This document shows, piece by piece, positions 6,747 through 42,848 of a DNA stretch of 64,000 bases. Position numbers and translations under genes: made by a program. How positions within the stretch are numbered: the stretch's first letter is position 1; every line of letters begins with the position of its first letter. The notes under the pieces are model-generated. The model searched no databases. It saw only the letters and a program-made list of their open reading frames with translations, and had not been told where the DNA came from. The stretch is from Paraflavitalea sp. CAU 1676 (GTDB lineage: Bacteria > Bacteroidota > Bacteroidia > Chitinophagales > Chitinophagaceae), in the NCBI RefSeq assembly GCF_029223285.1, contig NZ_JARHUJ010000008.1, positions 1 to 64,000 of the forward strand, written 5' to 3'.

Positions 6747-8981
6747 ATGGAAATATCAGTTAAAACGGCGCAGCAGTTGCGCCTTACTCCCGAAGAATTC
6801 GAGCTCATAAAACAAAAACTTGGTCGCACTCCCAACTTCAACGAACTCTGTGCCTTCAGCGGCATGTGGAGCGAACACTGTAGCTATAAGAATTCCATCA
6901 AATGGTTGAAAACACTGCCCCGTGACGGTAAAAGAATGCTGGTAAAAGCCGGCGAAGAAAATGCCGGACTGATGGACATCGGCGACGGCTACGGCGTAGT
7001 GTTCAAAATTGAATCCCACAATCACCCCTCCGCCATCGAACCCTTCCAGGGTGCCGCAACCGGTGTAGGGGGTATTCACCGCGATATCTTTACCATGGGC
7101 GCACGTCCCGTGGCATCCCTCAACTCCCTCCGTTTTGGTCACCTCAAAGATGCCAAAACCCAACACCTGCTCTCCGGCGTGGTGCATGGCATCGGTCACT
7201 ACGGTAACTGCTTCGGCGTACCTACCGTAGGCGGAGAGATCTATTTCGAAGGCCGCTACCATACCAACCCCCTCGTCAATGCTATGAGCGTGGGTATCGT
7301 AAAAAGCGGTGAAACCATCTCCGCCACCGCGGCAGGAGTGGGCAACCCCGTATTCTTCGTAGGTTCTGCCACCGGAAAAGACGGGATCGGCGGCGCCTCT
7401 TTCGCATCAGCTGATATTACCTCCGATAGCGTACAGGAATTACCTGCCGTACAGGTGGGCGACCCCTTCCAGGAGAAAAAACTGCTCGAGGCCTGCCTCG
7501 AAGTCATCCAGACCGGCGCCGTAGTAGGTATGCAGGACATGGGTGCTGCAGGCATCATATGCTCTACAGCCGAAATGAGCGCCAAAGGTGGCGTAGGTAT
7601 GCGCATCGACCTCGATAAAGTACCCACCCGCCAGGCCAATATGAAGACCTGGGAGCTCCTCCTCAGCGAAAGCCAGGAGCGCATGCTGATGGTGGTAGAA
7701 AAAGGCAAAGAAGAAGCCGTACAGAAAGTATTCGAGAAATGGGATCTTCCCTGCTCCAATATCGGTGAGGTAACCAACGATGGCCTCCTTCGTTTCTACA
7801 TGCATGGAGAACTGGAAGCCGAACTGCCAGCCGAAGAACTGGTACTCGGTGGCGGTGCTCCTCAATATACCCGCGAGTACAAAGAACCCGCCTACATGGA
7901 AAAGATCAAGGCATTCGATCCTGCCGCGATCAAAGTACCGGCCGACCTCAAAGCCGTAGCGGAAGAACTGGTAACCGTACCCAACATCGCCAACAAACGT
8001 TGGATCTATGTGCAGTACGATAGCATGGTAGGAGCCGGCAACGCCTCTACCAACCAGCCCAGCGACGCAGCGATAGTGATCGGAAAGCCAACCGGTAAGG
8101 GTCTCGCGCTCACTACCGATTGTAACAGCCGTTACGTATTCGCCGATCCTTATAAAGGAGCCATGATCGCAGTAGCAGAAGCAGCCCGCAACATCGTGTG
8201 CAGCGGCGGTGAGCCTCTTGGCGTAACCAACTGCCTCAACTTCGGCAATCCTTATGATCCCGAAGTATACTACCAGTTCGTACACGCCATTCAGGGCATG
8301 GGCGAAGCCTGCCGCAAGTTCGATACGCCTGTAACAGGTGGTAACGTGAGCTTCTACAACCAGAACCCCGATGGAGCCGTATATCCTACACCTACCATTG
8401 GCATGGTTGGCCTGCTCGACAGCGTGAACGATAAAATGACCATGTACTTTAAAGAGGCCGGCGATGTGATCTTCCTCGTAGGTAAATCCCGCGCCGACAT
8501 CAACTCTTCCGAATACCTGCACAAAGTGAACGGCGTAGAGCACAGCCCTGCCCCTCACTTCGATATTGAAGAAGAGTTTACCCTGCAGCAAAAAGTAACC
8601 GAACTCATCAAGGCAAAAGCCATCGAGTCGGCCCACGATACCAGCGAAGGTGGCCTGTTCATCACCCTGCTCGAATCCGGTTTCCACAAGAATCTCGGCG
8701 TAGACGTGAAGGCCGATGACAGCAGCATCCGCAAAGATGCCTATTGGTTTGGCGAAGCGCAAAGCCGCGTAGTGGTAAGCGTTAAGCCGGCGAAAGTGGC
8801 AGCCTTCCGCAAACTGATGGGCGATCACCCGTTTGCCGAACTGGGTACCGTAACCAATGGAGCTATCAACATCGATGGAGCCAACTGGGGACCCACCATC
8901 ACCTGGAAAGAAAAGTATGATACCGCCATCGAGAACCTGTTGGCCGGTACAGAATCAGAACAGGCATTAAGCGCATTATAA
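6747..8981 (+). CDS. purL: Phosphoribosylformylglycinamidine synthase, small PurL subunit
   Basis: Fourth step of de novo purine synthesis: FGAR plus glutamine plus ATP gives FGAM. The 744-residue length is that of the small PurL, which works with separate PurS and PurQ; neither is in this window. Motifs seen are WSEHCSYK at 41-48, with the catalytic histidine at 44, and IESHNHPSAIEPFQGAATGVGG at 88-109 (metal and ATP binding). The second ATP-grasp-like half contains the matching VTGGNVSFYN segment. The start follows its -7 box by a few bases. A perfect 11-bp inverted repeat follows the gene. Confidence 0.97.
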   Translation: MEISVKTAQQLRLTPEEFELIKQKLGRTPNFNELCAFSGMWSEHCSYKNSIKWLKTLPRDGKRMLVKAGEENAGLMDIGDGYGVVFKIESHNHPSAIEPFQGAATGVGGIHRDIFTMGARPVASLNSLRFGHLKDAKTQHLLSGVVHGIGHYGNCFGVPTVGGEIYFEGRYHTNPLVNAMSVGIVKSGETISATAAGVGNPVFFVGSATGKDGIGGASFASADITSDSVQELPAVQVGDPFQEKKLLEACLEVIQTGAVVGMQDMGAAGIICSTAEMSAKGGVGMRIDLDKVPTRQANMKTWELLLSESQERMLMVVEKGKEEAVQKVFEKWDLPCSNIGEVTNDGLLRFYMHGELEAELPAEELVLGGGAPQYTREYKEPAYMEKIKAFDPAAIKVPADLKAVAEELVTVPNIANKRWIYVQYDSMVGAGNASTNQPSDAAIVIGKPTGKGLALTTDCNSRYVFADPYKGAMIAVAEAARNIVCSGGEPLGVTNCLNFGNPYDPEVYYQFVHAIQGMGEACRKFDTPVTGGNVSFYNQNPDGAVYPTPTIGMVGLLDSVNDKMTMYFKEAGDVIFLVGKSRADINSSEYLHKVNGVEHSPAPHFDIEEEFTLQQKVTELIKAKAIESAHDTSEGGLFITLLESGFHKNLGVDVKADDSSIRKDAYWFGEAQSRVVVSVKPAKVAAFRKLMGDHPFAELGTVTNGAINIDGANWGPTITWKEKYDTAIENLLAGTESEQALSAL

Positions 8982-37101: not shown

Positions 37102-39252
37102 ATGGCAGACTTACGATTACAGAGAAACTTTGGTATTGCGGCACACATTGATGCCGGTAAAACCACTACTACGGAGCGTATCCTGCGCTACACCGGTATG
37201 ATCCACAAAATTGGTGAGGTGCATGATGGCGCTGCTACCACCGACTGGATGGAGCAGGAAAAAGAAAGAGGTATCACCATTACCTCTGCTGCTGTTAGCT
37301 GCCAGTGGAATTTCCCTACCGTAAAAGGTAAGGCTGATGCTAACACTAAAAAATATTACTTCAACATTATTGATACTCCAGGTCACGTGGATTTCACTGT
37401 AGAGGTGGAGCGTTCTATGCGTGTACTGGACGGTCTGATCGCCCTGTTCTCTGCAGTTGATGGCGTTGAGCCTCAGTCTGAGACCGTTTGGCGCCAGGCT
37501 AACCGTTATAAAGTTCCCCGTATCGGTTTCGTTAACAAAATGGACCGTTCCGGTGCAGACTTCCTGATGGTAGTTAAGCAGGTGAAAGAAATGCTCGGTG
37601 CTAAAGCCGTTCCCCTGCAATTACCCATCGGTGCAGAAGACGACTTCAAGGGTGTGGTTGACCTCATCACCATGAAGGGTGTTATCTGGCACATGGAAAC
37701 AGAAGGTATGACCTTCGATGAGATCCCTGTACCAGAAGATATGAAGGCTGAAGCAGAAGAGTGGAGGCAGAACCTGATCGAAGCTGTTGCCGAATACGAC
37801 GACAAGCTGCTCGAGAAGTTCTTCGACAACCCGGCTTCAATCTCTGAAGAAGAAGTACACGAAGCGATCCGCAAAGCTACGATCGATCTGAGCATCGTTC
37901 CGATGATGTGCGGTTCTTCCTTCAAGAATAAGGGCGTACAAACTGCCCTCGACGCAGTTTGCCGTTACCTGCCTTCACCCGTTGATATCGATGATACCGT
38001 AGGTACCAACCCCGATACCGGCGAACAGGAAACACGTAAACCCGATCCCAAAGCGCCTTTCGCTGCATTGGCCTTCAAGATCATGACCGATCCTTTCGTA
38101 GGTCGTCTGGCATTCTTCCGGTGCTATAGCGGCCACCTCGATGCTGGTTCTTATGTATTGAACGTAAGAAGCGGTAAGAAAGAGCGTATCAGCCGTATCA
38201 TGAAGATGTTTGCCAACAAGCAAAACCCCATCGACTTCATCGAAGCTGGTGATATCGGTGCAGCAGTTGGTTTCAAGGAAATCAAGACCGGTGATACCCT
38301 TTGCGACGAAGATCATCCCATCACACTCGAGAACATGTTCATCCCTGAGCCTGTGATCGCGATCGCCGTTGAGCCTAAAACACAGGCCGACGTTGATAAA
38401 ATGGGTATGGCCATCGCCAAGCTGGTTGAAGAAGATCCTACACTCCGCGTTAATACCGATGAAGATACCGGTCAAACCATCCTCCGTGGTATGGGTGAGT
38501 TGCACCTCGAGATCATCATCGACCGTATGCGTCGTGAGTTCAAAGTAGAAGTTAACCAGGGTGCTCCCCAGGTTGCCTATAAAGAAGCGTTCCGCAAAAC
38601 TGTTGAACACCGTGAAACACTGAAGAAACAAACCGGTGGTCGTGGTAAGTTCGCGGATATCGTATTCGAACTCGGACCTGCCGACGAAGAGTGGCTGACA
38701 GCAAACCCCAAAGAGAACCTGCAATTCGTGAATGATATCTTCGGTGGATCTATCCCCCGTGAGTTCATTCAGCCAATTCAGAAAGGATTCCAGTCTGCAC
38801 TGGGTACCGGTGTACTGGCAAACTATCCTGTAGAGCACGTGAAGGTGCGGATCTTCGACGGTAGCTTCCACCAGGTTGACTCTGATGGTATGTCGTTCGA
38901 ACTTTGCGCAAGAGCTGGTTTCCGTGAAGCCGGCCGCAAAGCACAACCCGTACTGCTCGAGCCTATCATGAAAGTAGAAGTTATCACACCCGACCAATAC
39001 ATGGGTGATGTAACTGGTGACTTGAACCGTCGTCGTGGTATGCTGGAAGGCATGGACAGCCGCGGTGGTGCACAGGTTATCAAGGCTAAAGTGCCTTTGA
39101 GCGAAATGTTCGGTTACGTAACGCAATTGCGTAGCTTGAGCTCTGGCCGTGCAACTTCTACCATGGAGTTCAGCCACTACTCTCCTGCACCCAACAACAT
39201 CGCCGAAGAGGTGATCGCCAAGGTGAAAGGAAAGCTGAAAGTAAGCGAATAA
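37102..39252 (+). CDS. fusA: Translation elongation factor G
   Basis: GTPase that moves tRNAs and mRNA on the ribosome. G1 AHIDAGKT at 14-21, G3 DTPGH at 91-95, G4 NKMD at 145-148; domain IV and V segments (GGRGKFADI and [17 protein letters not shown]) close the 716-residue protein. It has the full set of domains and is a normal EF-G. Unusually for this phylum it is a single-gene unit, with a promoter and a strong terminator, and not joined to rpsG and rpsJ. Confidence 0.98.
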
Positions 39253-39304: not shown

Positions 39305-39492
39305 ATTGCCACATCTATGGCCCCCGGCTCGGGGGCCACCTGCTCCACCCATGCCTTTAGCCTTCCCCTCCCTGCACACTTACAGCCCGAAACTGCACAG
39401 TTATGGGCTCAATCTGCGCACTTATTGGTTTGTCCTTGTGTCGTCTGCGGCAAACCGTTAATTTGGTCAATAAACCCCTAAACTCTCCAAAC

Positions 39493-40068
39493 ATGCGAAA
39501 GCTAACGCTAATGCTATGCCTGTTCATGGCATCGTACACCCTCTCTGCGCAGGAATTCATGCACTCATTTGGCGGCAAGTATCTATTCTACGGTAATTCC
39601 GACGGCGTTACCGGCGGCGTTCTTCTGTACTCGCCTCGTCTTAACCTCAATGCGGAAGGAAACAGCACCTTGTCGATCGGCACTCACTTCGGTCTCGGCT
39701 TCAATGTATCGTCACGTTCCGACGAGGGAGGTGGCAGCAGCTCCTTCATCCTGGATCTGCCGCTGGTAGCCGAATACAATGTTGGCTTTGGTTCCACCTC
39801 CGACGCCGATGGATCATTTGGTGGATATGTAGGAGCCGGCTACGGCATTCACCGCGCCAGCATGAGTACCGCCTATGGAAGTGGCAGTGCCACCTTGCAT
39901 GGCCCCGTATTTACCGGCGGTCTCCGTTTTCTCATCGGTTCGGTCGGAGCCTTTGAACTGGGAGCCAGCTACAACCTCGACCTTAAAACAAAAGTCAAGG
40001 AAGCCAAGTCGAATATATTCGGCATATCCGTTTCTTACATCTTTGGCTTTAGGGAAAGTGCTTTTTAG
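39493..40068 (+). CDS. Outer-membrane beta-barrel protein
   Basis: 191 residues from the ATG at 39493; the longer frame to 39403 has a polar, unlike-coding extension. Signal peptide MRKLTLMLCLFMASYTLSAQ. The mature part has amphipathic alternation and Gly-rich turns (GFGSTSDADGSFGGYVGAGYGIH) with a hydrophobic final strand (IFGISVSYIFGF). This is an eight-strand barrel pattern typical of Bacteroidota OMP domains. Function unknown. Confidence 0.75.
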   Translation: MRKLTLMLCLFMASYTLSAQEFMHSFGGKYLFYGNSDGVTGGVLLYSPRLNLNAEGNSTLSIGTHFGLGFNVSSRSDEGGGSSSFILDLPLVAEYNVGFGSTSDADGSFGGYVGAGYGIHRASMSTAYGSGSATLHGPVFTGGLRFLIGSVGAFELGASYNLDLKTKVKEAKSNIFGISVSYIFGFRESAF

Positions 40069-40222
40069 CATGGGCTGAAGATTGAATTGTTTTATGTACA
40101 TGCATAGCCTATCTTGCATCAACGATCGCTGGCCCCCAAAGGCTTTTGATTTGTGCTGGCCCTACAGGCTGCAACTCTCCCCCAAGTGAATTCTAAAAGC
40201 AATGATGAACTCACGTGAAAGA

Positions 40223-40246
40223 GCCTCTCTCCGGAGAGGCTTTTTT
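40223..40246 (+). terminator. Intrinsic terminator after the beta-barrel gene
   Basis: GCCTCTC, loop, GAGAGGC, then six T, 155 bases after the stop. The space before it has no gene. Confidence 0.8.
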
Positions 40247-40336
40247 ATTCCTCATTAAAGCGACATTAAAACCAACAAGCCGATTAAACTTTCTTTTTTG
40301 GCATATGTCAAACAACCGCATCGCCGGCCCGGCCGT

Positions 40337-40402
40337 ATGATGCATAAAGCGACAAGAATTATCGGATCAATGGATACACGCTCCCTGAACATGGGAAGCT
40401 AA
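40337..40402 (+). CDS. Candidate 21-residue peptide with its own terminator
   Basis: An open frame starting with two ATG codons (40337 and 40340) and ending in TAA, coding for a 21-residue basic peptide (core HKATRIIGSMDTRSLNMGS). A terminator starts 9 bases after it (40412). The frame may be a real micro-gene, a leader peptide of the DPP-IV-like gene, or part of a small RNA. No -7 box is convincing upstream, only a TTTTTTG at 40294-40300. Confidence 0.35.
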   Translation: MMHKATRIIGSMDTRSLNMGS

Positions 40403-40411
40403 GGTTAGCAG

Positions 40412-40435
40412 ATCCCGGCACCGGCCGGGATTTTT
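40412..40435 (+). terminator. Orphan terminator
   Basis: ATCCCGGC, ACCG loop, GCCGGGAT, then a T-run of five. No large gene precedes it, only the 21-codon frame, and the next gene starts 210 bases on. Confidence 0.8.
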
Positions 40436-40646
40436 CTTGTCCGGCTTACAGCAAACTAACCCGGCAGGCCATGGCAACCTGCGCCCTACGTCCACCTTCT
40501 CCGGATACTACACTAGGTAATGCTGGGAGCCAACCTGCTACTGCCACCATTCGGCGCCATCCGTCAATGAAGCAATAGGGTTGGTTAATCCTTGTTTACC
40601 CCATGTCGGGCTTTTCCGTTAATTTCCCGCCCTAAAAATCTACAGC

Positions 40647-42848
40647 ATGAAATGTCAGTCGGCTTTCTTTTCAAGATGGCTAAGTGTTTGCCTGTGCCTC
40701 CTTTCCTTTCAGTTCCTGCAGGCCCAGGGGGGCGTTCGCTGGGCAAAGGATGGCAATAGCTATTACAGTGCCCAGGGAGGTGAATTGCTCCAGTTCGTAC
40801 TTCCCAAAAACGAGAAAACGGTGTTATTGACCAAAGAACAGCTGACCCCGCAGGGACAAAGCCCGCTGGCATTCCGCAACTTCTCATTCTCTGAAGACGA
40901 TACCAAAGTATTACTGTTCACGAATTCGAAGAAGGTTTGGCGCCTCTATACCCGGGGCGATTATTGGGTATATGACCGCACAGCCAAAACCCTGAAGCAG
41001 ATCGGCAAGGGCCGCCCCGCTTCTTCCTTGATGTTTGCCAAGTTTTCGCCCGACGGCAGCAAAGTAGCTTACGTGAGCGAGTATAATATTTATGTAGAAG
41101 ACCTGGCCTCCGGCGTCATAAAGAAACTTACCACCGATGGCAACCGTAAGCTCATCAACGGAACGTTCGACTGGGTATACGAAGAAGAGTTTTTCTGCCG
41201 TGATGGATTCCGCTGGAGCCCCGATAGCAAACAGATCGCCTACTGGCAGATCGATGCCAAGAATACGAAGGACTACCTGATGGTGAACAATACCGATTCC
41301 ATCTATCCCTTTGCCGTGCCCGTTGAATACCCCGTAGCCGGCGAAGCGCCCTCTCCTTTCAAAATTGGCGTGGTCAATACCTCCACCGCGCAAACCCAGT
41401 GGATGTCGGTTCCCACCGACGCTGTTTGGCAGAGCTATGTGCCCCGCCTGGAATGGGCCGGAAACAGCAACGAATTGATACTCCAGCACCTCAACCGCAA
41501 GCAGAACGAAAGCAAGATACTTTTGTGCAATGCACAGACCGGTGCGGCCCAAACCATCTATACAGAAAAAGATTCGGCCTGGATCGATATCCAGCCACTT
41601 TGGGATAACGACTACATCTGGGGCGGATGGGATTGGCTGAATGGCGGTAAGGAGTTCATCTGGTCATCCGAAAAAGACGGCTGGCGACACCTTTACCGCG
41701 TGAGCCGCGATGGCAAGAAGGAAACCCTCATTACGGCCGGTAACTACGATGTCATGGAAATTACCTGCATCGATGAAAAGGGCGGTTTCCTGTACTTCAT
41801 GGCATCGCCCGAAAATGCCACGCAAAAATTCCTGTACCGCACCAAGCTCGATGGAAAGGGTAAACCTGAAAGGCTGTCACCCGCCACCCAGCAGGGCACC
41901 CATGATTACGATGTATCGCCGAATGCAAAATATGCCCAGCATACTTTCACCAATTATTACACCCGGTACGCATCCGAGCTCATCTCCCTGGCCGACCACA
42001 AAGGACTCAATGGAGAGAACAAGGTAGGCGAGGCGGTAGCCCAGGCCAACAAAGCGGCATCGAAGGTCGAGTTCTTTAAAGTGACCACCTCCGAAGGCGT
42101 GGAAATGGACGCCTGGATGGTAAAACCCGACAACTTCGACGCTACAAAGAAATACCCCGTGGTGTTTTATGTGTACACAGAACCCTGGGGACAGAACGTA
42201 AAAGACCAGTTTGGGGTAGAGAACAATTTCCTGTACCAGGGCAGCATGGCCAAAGACGGCTACATCTATATCTCGATCGATAACCGCGGTACACCAGTGC
42301 CCAAAGGCCGTAACTGGCGTAAGGTGGTATATCGTAAGATCGGTCTGGTAAACATCCGCGATCAGGCGCTCGCCGCCACCGAGATCCTGAAATGGCCATT
42401 TGTCGACAGCAGCCGCGTGGCCGTATGGGGCTGGAGTGGTGGTGGATCAGCCACCCTTAACCTCATGTTCCAATATCCGGAGATCTATAAAACCGGTATT
42501 GCTGTGGCAGCCGTGGGCAACCAGCTTACTTACGACAATATCTATCAGGAGCGCTATATGGGACTGCCCCAGGAAAACCGTGAGGATTTCGTGAAAGGAT
42601 CGCCCATTACGTATGCTAAGAACCTGAAAGGAAACCTGTTGTATATACATGGCACCGGCGATGACAACGTGCACTATAACAATGTGGAGATGCTGGTCAA
42701 TGAGCTGGTGAAGCACAACCGCCAGTTTCAGTTGATGGCCTATCCCAACCGCACCCACAGCATCAGCGAAGGAGCCGGAACCTTCCAGCACTTATCGACC
42801 CTGTACACCAATTACCTGAAACAACATTGCCCTCCGGGAGGAAGGTAA
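40647..42848 (+). CDS. DPP-IV-like secreted prolyl peptidase, S9B
   Basis: 733 residues. Signal peptide MKCQSAFFSRWLSVCLCLLS with cleavage after AQ near 27. An eight-blade beta-propeller covers about 40-480. It contains the double-Glu site (DWVYEEEFFCRDGFRWS, about 178-194), which binds the N-terminus of substrates in DPP IV. The alpha/beta-hydrolase domain carries Ser597 in GWSGGG, Asp672 in GTGDDN and His704 in NRTHS. The family's usual GWSYGG is GWSGGG here. It probably cleaves X-Pro dipeptides in the periplasm. A terminator follows. Confidence 0.92.
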   Translation: MKCQSAFFSRWLSVCLCLLSFQFLQAQGGVRWAKDGNSYYSAQGGELLQFVLPKNEKTVLLTKEQLTPQGQSPLAFRNFSFSEDDTKVLLFTNSKKVWRLYTRGDYWVYDRTAKTLKQIGKGRPASSLMFAKFSPDGSKVAYVSEYNIYVEDLASGVIKKLTTDGNRKLINGTFDWVYEEEFFCRDGFRWSPDSKQIAYWQIDAKNTKDYLMVNNTDSIYPFAVPVEYPVAGEAPSPFKIGVVNTSTAQTQWMSVPTDAVWQSYVPRLEWAGNSNELILQHLNRKQNESKILLCNAQTGAAQTIYTEKDSAWIDIQPLWDNDYIWGGWDWLNGGKEFIWSSEKDGWRHLYRVSRDGKKETLITAGNYDVMEITCIDEKGGFLYFMASPENATQKFLYRTKLDGKGKPERLSPATQQGTHDYDVSPNAKYAQHTFTNYYTRYASELISLADHKGLNGENKVGEAVAQANKAASKVEFFKVTTSEGVEMDAWMVKPDNFDATKKYPVVFYVYTEPWGQNVKDQFGVENNFLYQGSMAKDGYIYISIDNRGTPVPKGRNWRKVVYRKIGLVNIRDQALAATEILKWPFVDSSRVAVWGWSGGGSATLNLMFQYPEIYKTGIAVAAVGNQLTYDNIYQERYMGLPQENREDFVKGSPITYAKNLKGNLLYIHGTGDDNVHYNNVEMLVNELVKHNRQFQLMAYPNRTHSISEGAGTFQHLSTLYTNYLKQHCPPGGR

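Follow-up and report, generated by a model that had tools for sequence, protein, structure and literature searches.

In the window, by which we mean the whole 64,000-nucleotide stretch analysed, two putative non-coding units, RNA-1 and RNA-2, lie upstream of a DPP-IV gene in the order fusA, barrel-like gene, RNA-1, RNA-2, DPP-IV (Table 1). We compared this locus across five genomes of one genus, namely that of the window (8.84 Mb) and four congeners (Niastella-like, Chitinophagaceae). The only match to the RNA-2 pattern in the named genome collection, where records near the window's genome may be absent, was Niastella sp. BIN41, whose DNA equals that of congener G002 across the 400 bases compared, so the genus is Niastella or, under the classification used, a close equivalent of it.

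The RNA-2 locus is present in four of the five genomes (the window's, G002, G003, and G004), all of which keep the order RNA-1, RNA-2, DPP-IV; the fifth, G001, lacks it. A DNA search with the intergenic region matched positions 40141–40435 in three of the four congeners at 70–80% identity and, in genomes beyond those three, returned short matches only (E 9e-4 or worse). In G002 and G003, RNA-1 directly follows fusA. Elsewhere the interval between them holds different genes by species, a barrel-like gene in the window (within 39374–40068) and a divergent gene of 376 residues in G004 (L022 2219–3349), and this spot therefore seems to take up insertions.

Table 1. Features of the locus, in window coordinates
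Feature	Position	Strand	Details
fusA	37102–39252		Start of the window order
191-residue gene	39493–40068		No Pfam match; reads like a small outer-membrane barrel
-7-like box of RNA-1	40110–40117	+	TATCTTGC in the window (TATATTGC in three relatives); alignment
RNA-1, putative non-coding RNA	40122–40247 (about)	+	Start inferred from box, end from terminator 40218–40247
Three invariant ATTAAA boxes, possible activator sites	40254–40289	+	Starts 40254, 40265, 40283; ungapped block, four genomes
ECF-like promoter of RNA-2	40308–40337	+	TCAAACAACC 40308–40317, 16-base spacer, CGTA 40334–40337
21-codon frame, ATGATG...TAA	40337–40402	+	Probably chance, not a gene
RNA-2, putative small RNA	40344–40435 (about)	+	Start inferred from promoter, end from terminator; alignments, model R1
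Conserved block GGATAyAC in RNA-2	40372–40379	+	Alignment
Conserved block GGAAGCTwwGGTTAGCA in RNA-2	40394–40410	+	15/17 columns invariant
Intrinsic terminator of RNA-2	40410–40433	+	Pattern scan; stem TCCCGGC/GCCGGGA kept 4/4
Promoter-like block of DPP-IV	40581–40618	+	TTGGTTAAT ... CTTTTG; independent of RNA-2; 5/5 genus genomes
DPP-IV gene	40647–42848	+	DPPIV_N E 6.1e-85, Peptidase_S9 E 4e-41

Alignment of the four genomes resolves the locus into conserved islands separated by unalignable stretches. For RNA-2 these islands are the three ATTAAA boxes, TCAAACAACC, CGTA, GGATAyAC, GGAAGCTwwGGTTAGCA, and the TCCCGGC/GCCGGGA stem with its T tail. From the first ATTAAA through CGTA there is not a single indel, and the ATTAAA boxes keep a fixed spacing; in the two promoter-like boxes all 14 columns are invariant, against 1 of 16 in the N16 spacer between them. 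Where the initial annotation had placed a terminator behind a short reading frame, we found a terminator-like hairpin of 10 pairs with a 4-base loop and a T-rich tail. Such sites are no more frequent in the surrounding 9 kb than in shuffled sequence (11, shuffle mean 9.8, sd 3.3), and the frame is equally unremarkable (see below), so conservation has to decide. The hairpin is conserved in all four genomes having the locus, which, judged from the alignment, chance does not explain. The full RNA-2 folds modestly better than its shuffles (z –1.63 to –2.80), all of it due to the terminator; with the terminator removed it folds no better than they do (z +0.20, +1.39, +0.27, and –0.64 in the four genomes), and no conserved fold of the RNA-2 body beyond the terminator was found in these four genomes.

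ECF sigma factors read AAC at –35 and CGT at –10 (PMC8103513), a layout that TCAAACAACC-N16-CGTA fits in all four genomes having the locus, without variation. We tentatively assign the RNA-2 promoter to the ECF type, a class assignment that rests on two short boxes, and the promoter looks stress-type. The ordinary Bacteroidota promoter box is given as TAnnTTTG (PMC7366714). In Flavobacterium psychrophilum, the published account attributes a CGT-box motif, SM6, to ECF factors and places it before T9SS genes, an ECF/anti-sigma pair, and the putative regulatory RNA Rfp11 (PMC9723704). Against the ECF reading, the Bacteroidota ECF motifs described for Porphyromonas gingivalis (the SigP motif as given in PMC4800418) and Bacteroides thetaiotaomicron (TGTT near –10, as given in PMC12596196) look different from the RNA-2 boxes.

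We searched the five genomes for further sites of this promoter. With at most one mismatch, TCAAACAACC-N16-CGTA occurs at 22 places, compared with 7 for the reversed pattern, and four of the 22 are RNA-2 itself. Among the other 18, all of them examined, 17 fall inside frames of >120 codons, not all of which need be genuine, and two are exact, lying antisense in a Rossmann-fold, epimerase-like gene; no site besides RNA-2 in the five genomes resembles a shared promoter, and this lack of a regulon in the search counts against the ECF reading. The pattern AACAACC-N16-CGTA was found at 28 places versus 17 for the control. Of these we examined 22, excluding the four at RNA-2 and two in the epimerase-like gene, and three of the 22 lay outside frames of >150 codons, two of them forming a matching pair in G000 and G004. 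This pair stands 207 bases before a 431-residue gene of the GSDH (glucose/sorbosone dehydrogenase) type (L111 and L136, about 1501–1527), and as a weaker, orthologous pair it is possibly a second site of the same promoter class. A link to T9SS, as suggested by the Flavobacterium paper (PMC9723704), was dropped because the 360 bases around and before the porU start hold no AACC-N15-17-CGT in any of the five genomes.

To gauge distribution, covariance models for RNA-2 (R1) and RNA-1 (R2) were run on 394 family genomes, a sample of a larger set, under tightened filters that may miss faint matches. The terminator loop was misplaced in the R1 alignment (11 pairs), so R1 mainly models sequence. With E values up to 0.1 admitted, R1 gave a match in 50 of the 394 genomes, with the four model-building genomes at 119–136 bits and the next at 29; R2 gave matches in 91, with the four genus genomes at 146–174 bits and the next at 36.8. 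We take the low-scoring matches to both models as probable chance terminators. Beyond the four genus genomes, nothing comparable to RNA-1 or RNA-2 was found among the 394, and RNA-2 is lineage-restricted in the sense that R1 finds it in this genus only within that sample.

No Rfam family reaches its gathering score, and a known RNA family was accordingly rejected as the identity of RNA-2. The best weak match among the small RNA families is RsmY (20.7 bits, E 0.0072, gathering score 57), a likeness confined to a terminator-like hairpin. By promoter type and description, RNA-2 can be likened to Rfp11 of F. psychrophilum, a putative Bacteroidota small RNA described as standing alone, with a promoter that is ascribed to an ECF sigma factor (PMC9723704); R1 was run inside the Chitinophagaceae-type family only. 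The sigma-E-dependent MicA, RybB, and MicL of Escherichia coli, as described in PMC8103513, are likewise small RNAs with ECF sigma drive and an end of their own, and the likeness would be one of working only, Rfam revealing no sequence relation. In open-licence PubMed Central we found little published work on small RNAs in this family: nothing joining a Chitinophaga small RNA with an ECF sigma factor, and sRNA papers that name Niastella only in passing.

Complements of two conserved RNA-2 blocks were scanned in the five genomes, and no target was found. The two scans returned 6 and 3 matches outside RNA-2, near the number expected by chance, and the only match that recurred lies in gldM of G003 and G004, where a 15-base complement, made up of 14 pairs plus a single G-U, sits 104 and 106 bases ahead of gldN (NCBIfam and Pfam gave the GldM and GldN identities). 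The best gldM duplexes there reach –42.7 and –40.1 kcal/mol, compared with mean values of –21.5 and –19.0. The window's genome has an altered site, and its best duplex for this region (–31.0) forms elsewhere; we rejected gldM as a target, given this broken site in the window's own genome and match counts near chance. RNA-2 would probably act in trans by base pairing. Its short, open, conserved body followed by a terminator has the look expected of a base-pairing RNA, and such an RNA may fold no better than shuffles.

Taken as sequence, RNA-2 has the features of a stand-alone small RNA gene: its own predicted promoter and intrinsic terminator, both conserved, and no conserved frame. We consider it likely that it is a free-standing gene for a trans-acting small RNA, with an ECF-type promoter and a terminator end, rather than for a peptide. 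The sequence TCAAACAACC-N16-CGTA would be recognized by RNA polymerase carrying a sigma factor of the ECF type, and a regulator bound at the three ATTAAA boxes may assist. If ECF promoters work without activators, however, the three boxes would be unusual, a point against this reading. Transcription, which we infer, would run for ~92 bases and stop at the hairpin; the short, mostly unstructured product could pair in trans through GGATAyAC and GGAAGCTwwGGTTAGCA, its 3' end protected by the terminator. Such a gene would be a useful but ordinary kind of find. If transcribed, RNA-2 offers a compact combination of promoter and RNA for finding the sigma factor, and a way to ask if ECF-driven RNAs serve Bacteroidota as they serve enterobacteria.

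An alternative to a functional small RNA is that the conserved DNA is promoter or regulator-binding sequence followed by a terminator, with abortive or spurious transcription and with the conserved blocks serving as protein-binding sites. The narrow distribution, the lack of a target in our scans, and the weak structure are all in keeping with this, as is the fact that conservation is most rigid in the upstream boxes; however, conservation on the transcribed side, in the block with 15 of 17 invariant columns and in the terminator stem, equals that of the promoter boxes, and we regard this explanation as unlikely.

Slightly less probable still is that RNA-2 is the 5' leader of the DPP-IV mRNA, its terminator being opened under some condition. 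The initial annotation had named an attenuator leader as one option and a DPP-IV-like gene downstream, and that gene is indeed there, on the same strand, starting 211 bases past 40435 and matching the DPPIV_N and Peptidase_S9 profiles; the order of RNA-1, RNA-2, and DPP-IV, kept wherever the locus occurs, would also suit a leader. The attenuator is nonetheless unlikely because a promoter-like block separates the terminator from DPP-IV in all five genus genomes, including G001, which keeps DPP-IV and the block without either RNA. Some letters of the block differ in several genomes, the window's and G003 included, and it begins 2 bases past the RNA-2 T-run in G002 and G004 and 74 bases past it in G003. 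Further against a leader, the folds we inspected showed no second hairpin that would compete with the stem of the terminator. The terminator looks, from its setting in the alignment, like the end of one unit and not a switch for the next gene.

The absence of the RNAs from G001 was seen in two ways: the covariance model did not find RNA-2 there, and no RNA-1 or RNA-2 stretch stands out by blastn. In this genome, fusA and DPP-IV are ~11.5 kb apart, with a reverse transcriptase frame and proteins of 1492 and 1441 residues between them. The reverse transcriptase frame, downstream of fusA (L141 about 280–1366), is of group II intron type (NCBIfam TIGR04416, E 2.4e-62, below its cut-off; the frame is short).

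The 21-codon frame with two starting ATGs is present as first annotated and translates as MMHKATRIIGSMDTRSLNMGS. An ATG frame of at least 21 codons appears in 34.8% of 2000 dinucleotide shuffles of positions 40250–40436 and in 96.75% of shuffles of the whole 578-base intergenic region, where the longest actual ATG frame has 35 codons. Its first ATG takes the final A of the conserved CGTA box and would therefore sit upstream of the start site set by that box, with the second ATG about at the start site. In the alignment, none of the three relatives has a matching start, stop, or reading frame, and one carries an unrelated 18-codon GTG frame in the segment. When GTG and TTG also count as starts, frame length in the segment varies widely among the four genomes, with maxima of 34, 30, 0, and 6 codons on the plus strand and 45, 19, 24, and 18 on the minus strand. 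The bases just after CGTA, about the first half of the frame, are not conserved. Given the shuffle frequency, the ATG within CGTA, and the absence of the frame from all three relatives, it is probably a chance reading frame over an RNA gene; a short frame 5' of a terminator can be a by-product of such a gene.

A peptide gene is thus very unlikely here, and we dropped the micro-protein reading, that this or a similar short frame is translated, as the least probable: an open frame with two ATGs directly 5' of a terminator invites it, but its length is common in shuffles, it begins within the CGTA box, and no relative keeps it. A conserved terminator with an unconserved frame, one half of the outcome that the initial annotation had named as contrary to its reading, is what the genomes display (terminator 4/4, frame 0/3). 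Of the three options that it had offered, the small RNA is the one supported, with conserved boxes, blocks, and terminator and no conserved frame.

Directly 5' of RNA-2 lies RNA-1, likewise conserved and putatively non-coding. It has an SM5-like promoter and ends in a separate terminator, the stem of which appears in the predicted structure and is absent from the pattern-scan list. Its box (TATCTTGC; TATATTGC in relatives) fits the SM5 motif of F. psychrophilum, given as TAnnTTGY (PMC9723704). Without its terminator, RNA-1 is hardly better folded than shuffles (z +1.14, –0.63, –1.45, and –0.39 in the four genomes). Pairing between RNA-1 and RNA-2 is unsupported, shuffles (n = 300) being at least as good in fractions of 0.14, 0.79, 0.06, and 0.37 in the four genomes. 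In G002 the RNA-1 terminator is set apart from the ATTAAA boxes by a ~60-base insertion that resembles a palindrome (L004 about 1614–1670), which suggests that the two RNAs form separate units.

Of most interest is this tandem of two putative RNA units with two different alternative-type promoters. As a speculative and rather doubtful extension, the two might be previously undescribed small RNAs between fusA and DPP-IV in this Niastella-like genus, each with a different non-housekeeping promoter (RNA-1 SM5-like, preceded in three relatives by repeat boxes of LytTR type; RNA-2 ECF-like with ATTAAA boxes). Together they could serve as the RNA branch of a Chitinophagaceae response to surface or envelope stress, filling in a different phylum the place that MicA and RybB have in theirs.

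LytTR regulator sites are described as a pair of 9-base repeats 10–13 apart (PMC11347149). LytTR-like direct repeats, TGCACA(G/C)TTA at ~21-base intervals, lie upstream of RNA-1 in G002, G003, and G004 (L002 and L003, minus strand; L004 about 1390–1450). In the window they are found instead upstream of the barrel-like gene, at 39374–39424, with two overlapping matches versus 0.15 expected, and in G001 looser copies, recognized by eye, precede the 1441-residue protein (L141 about 6990–7040).
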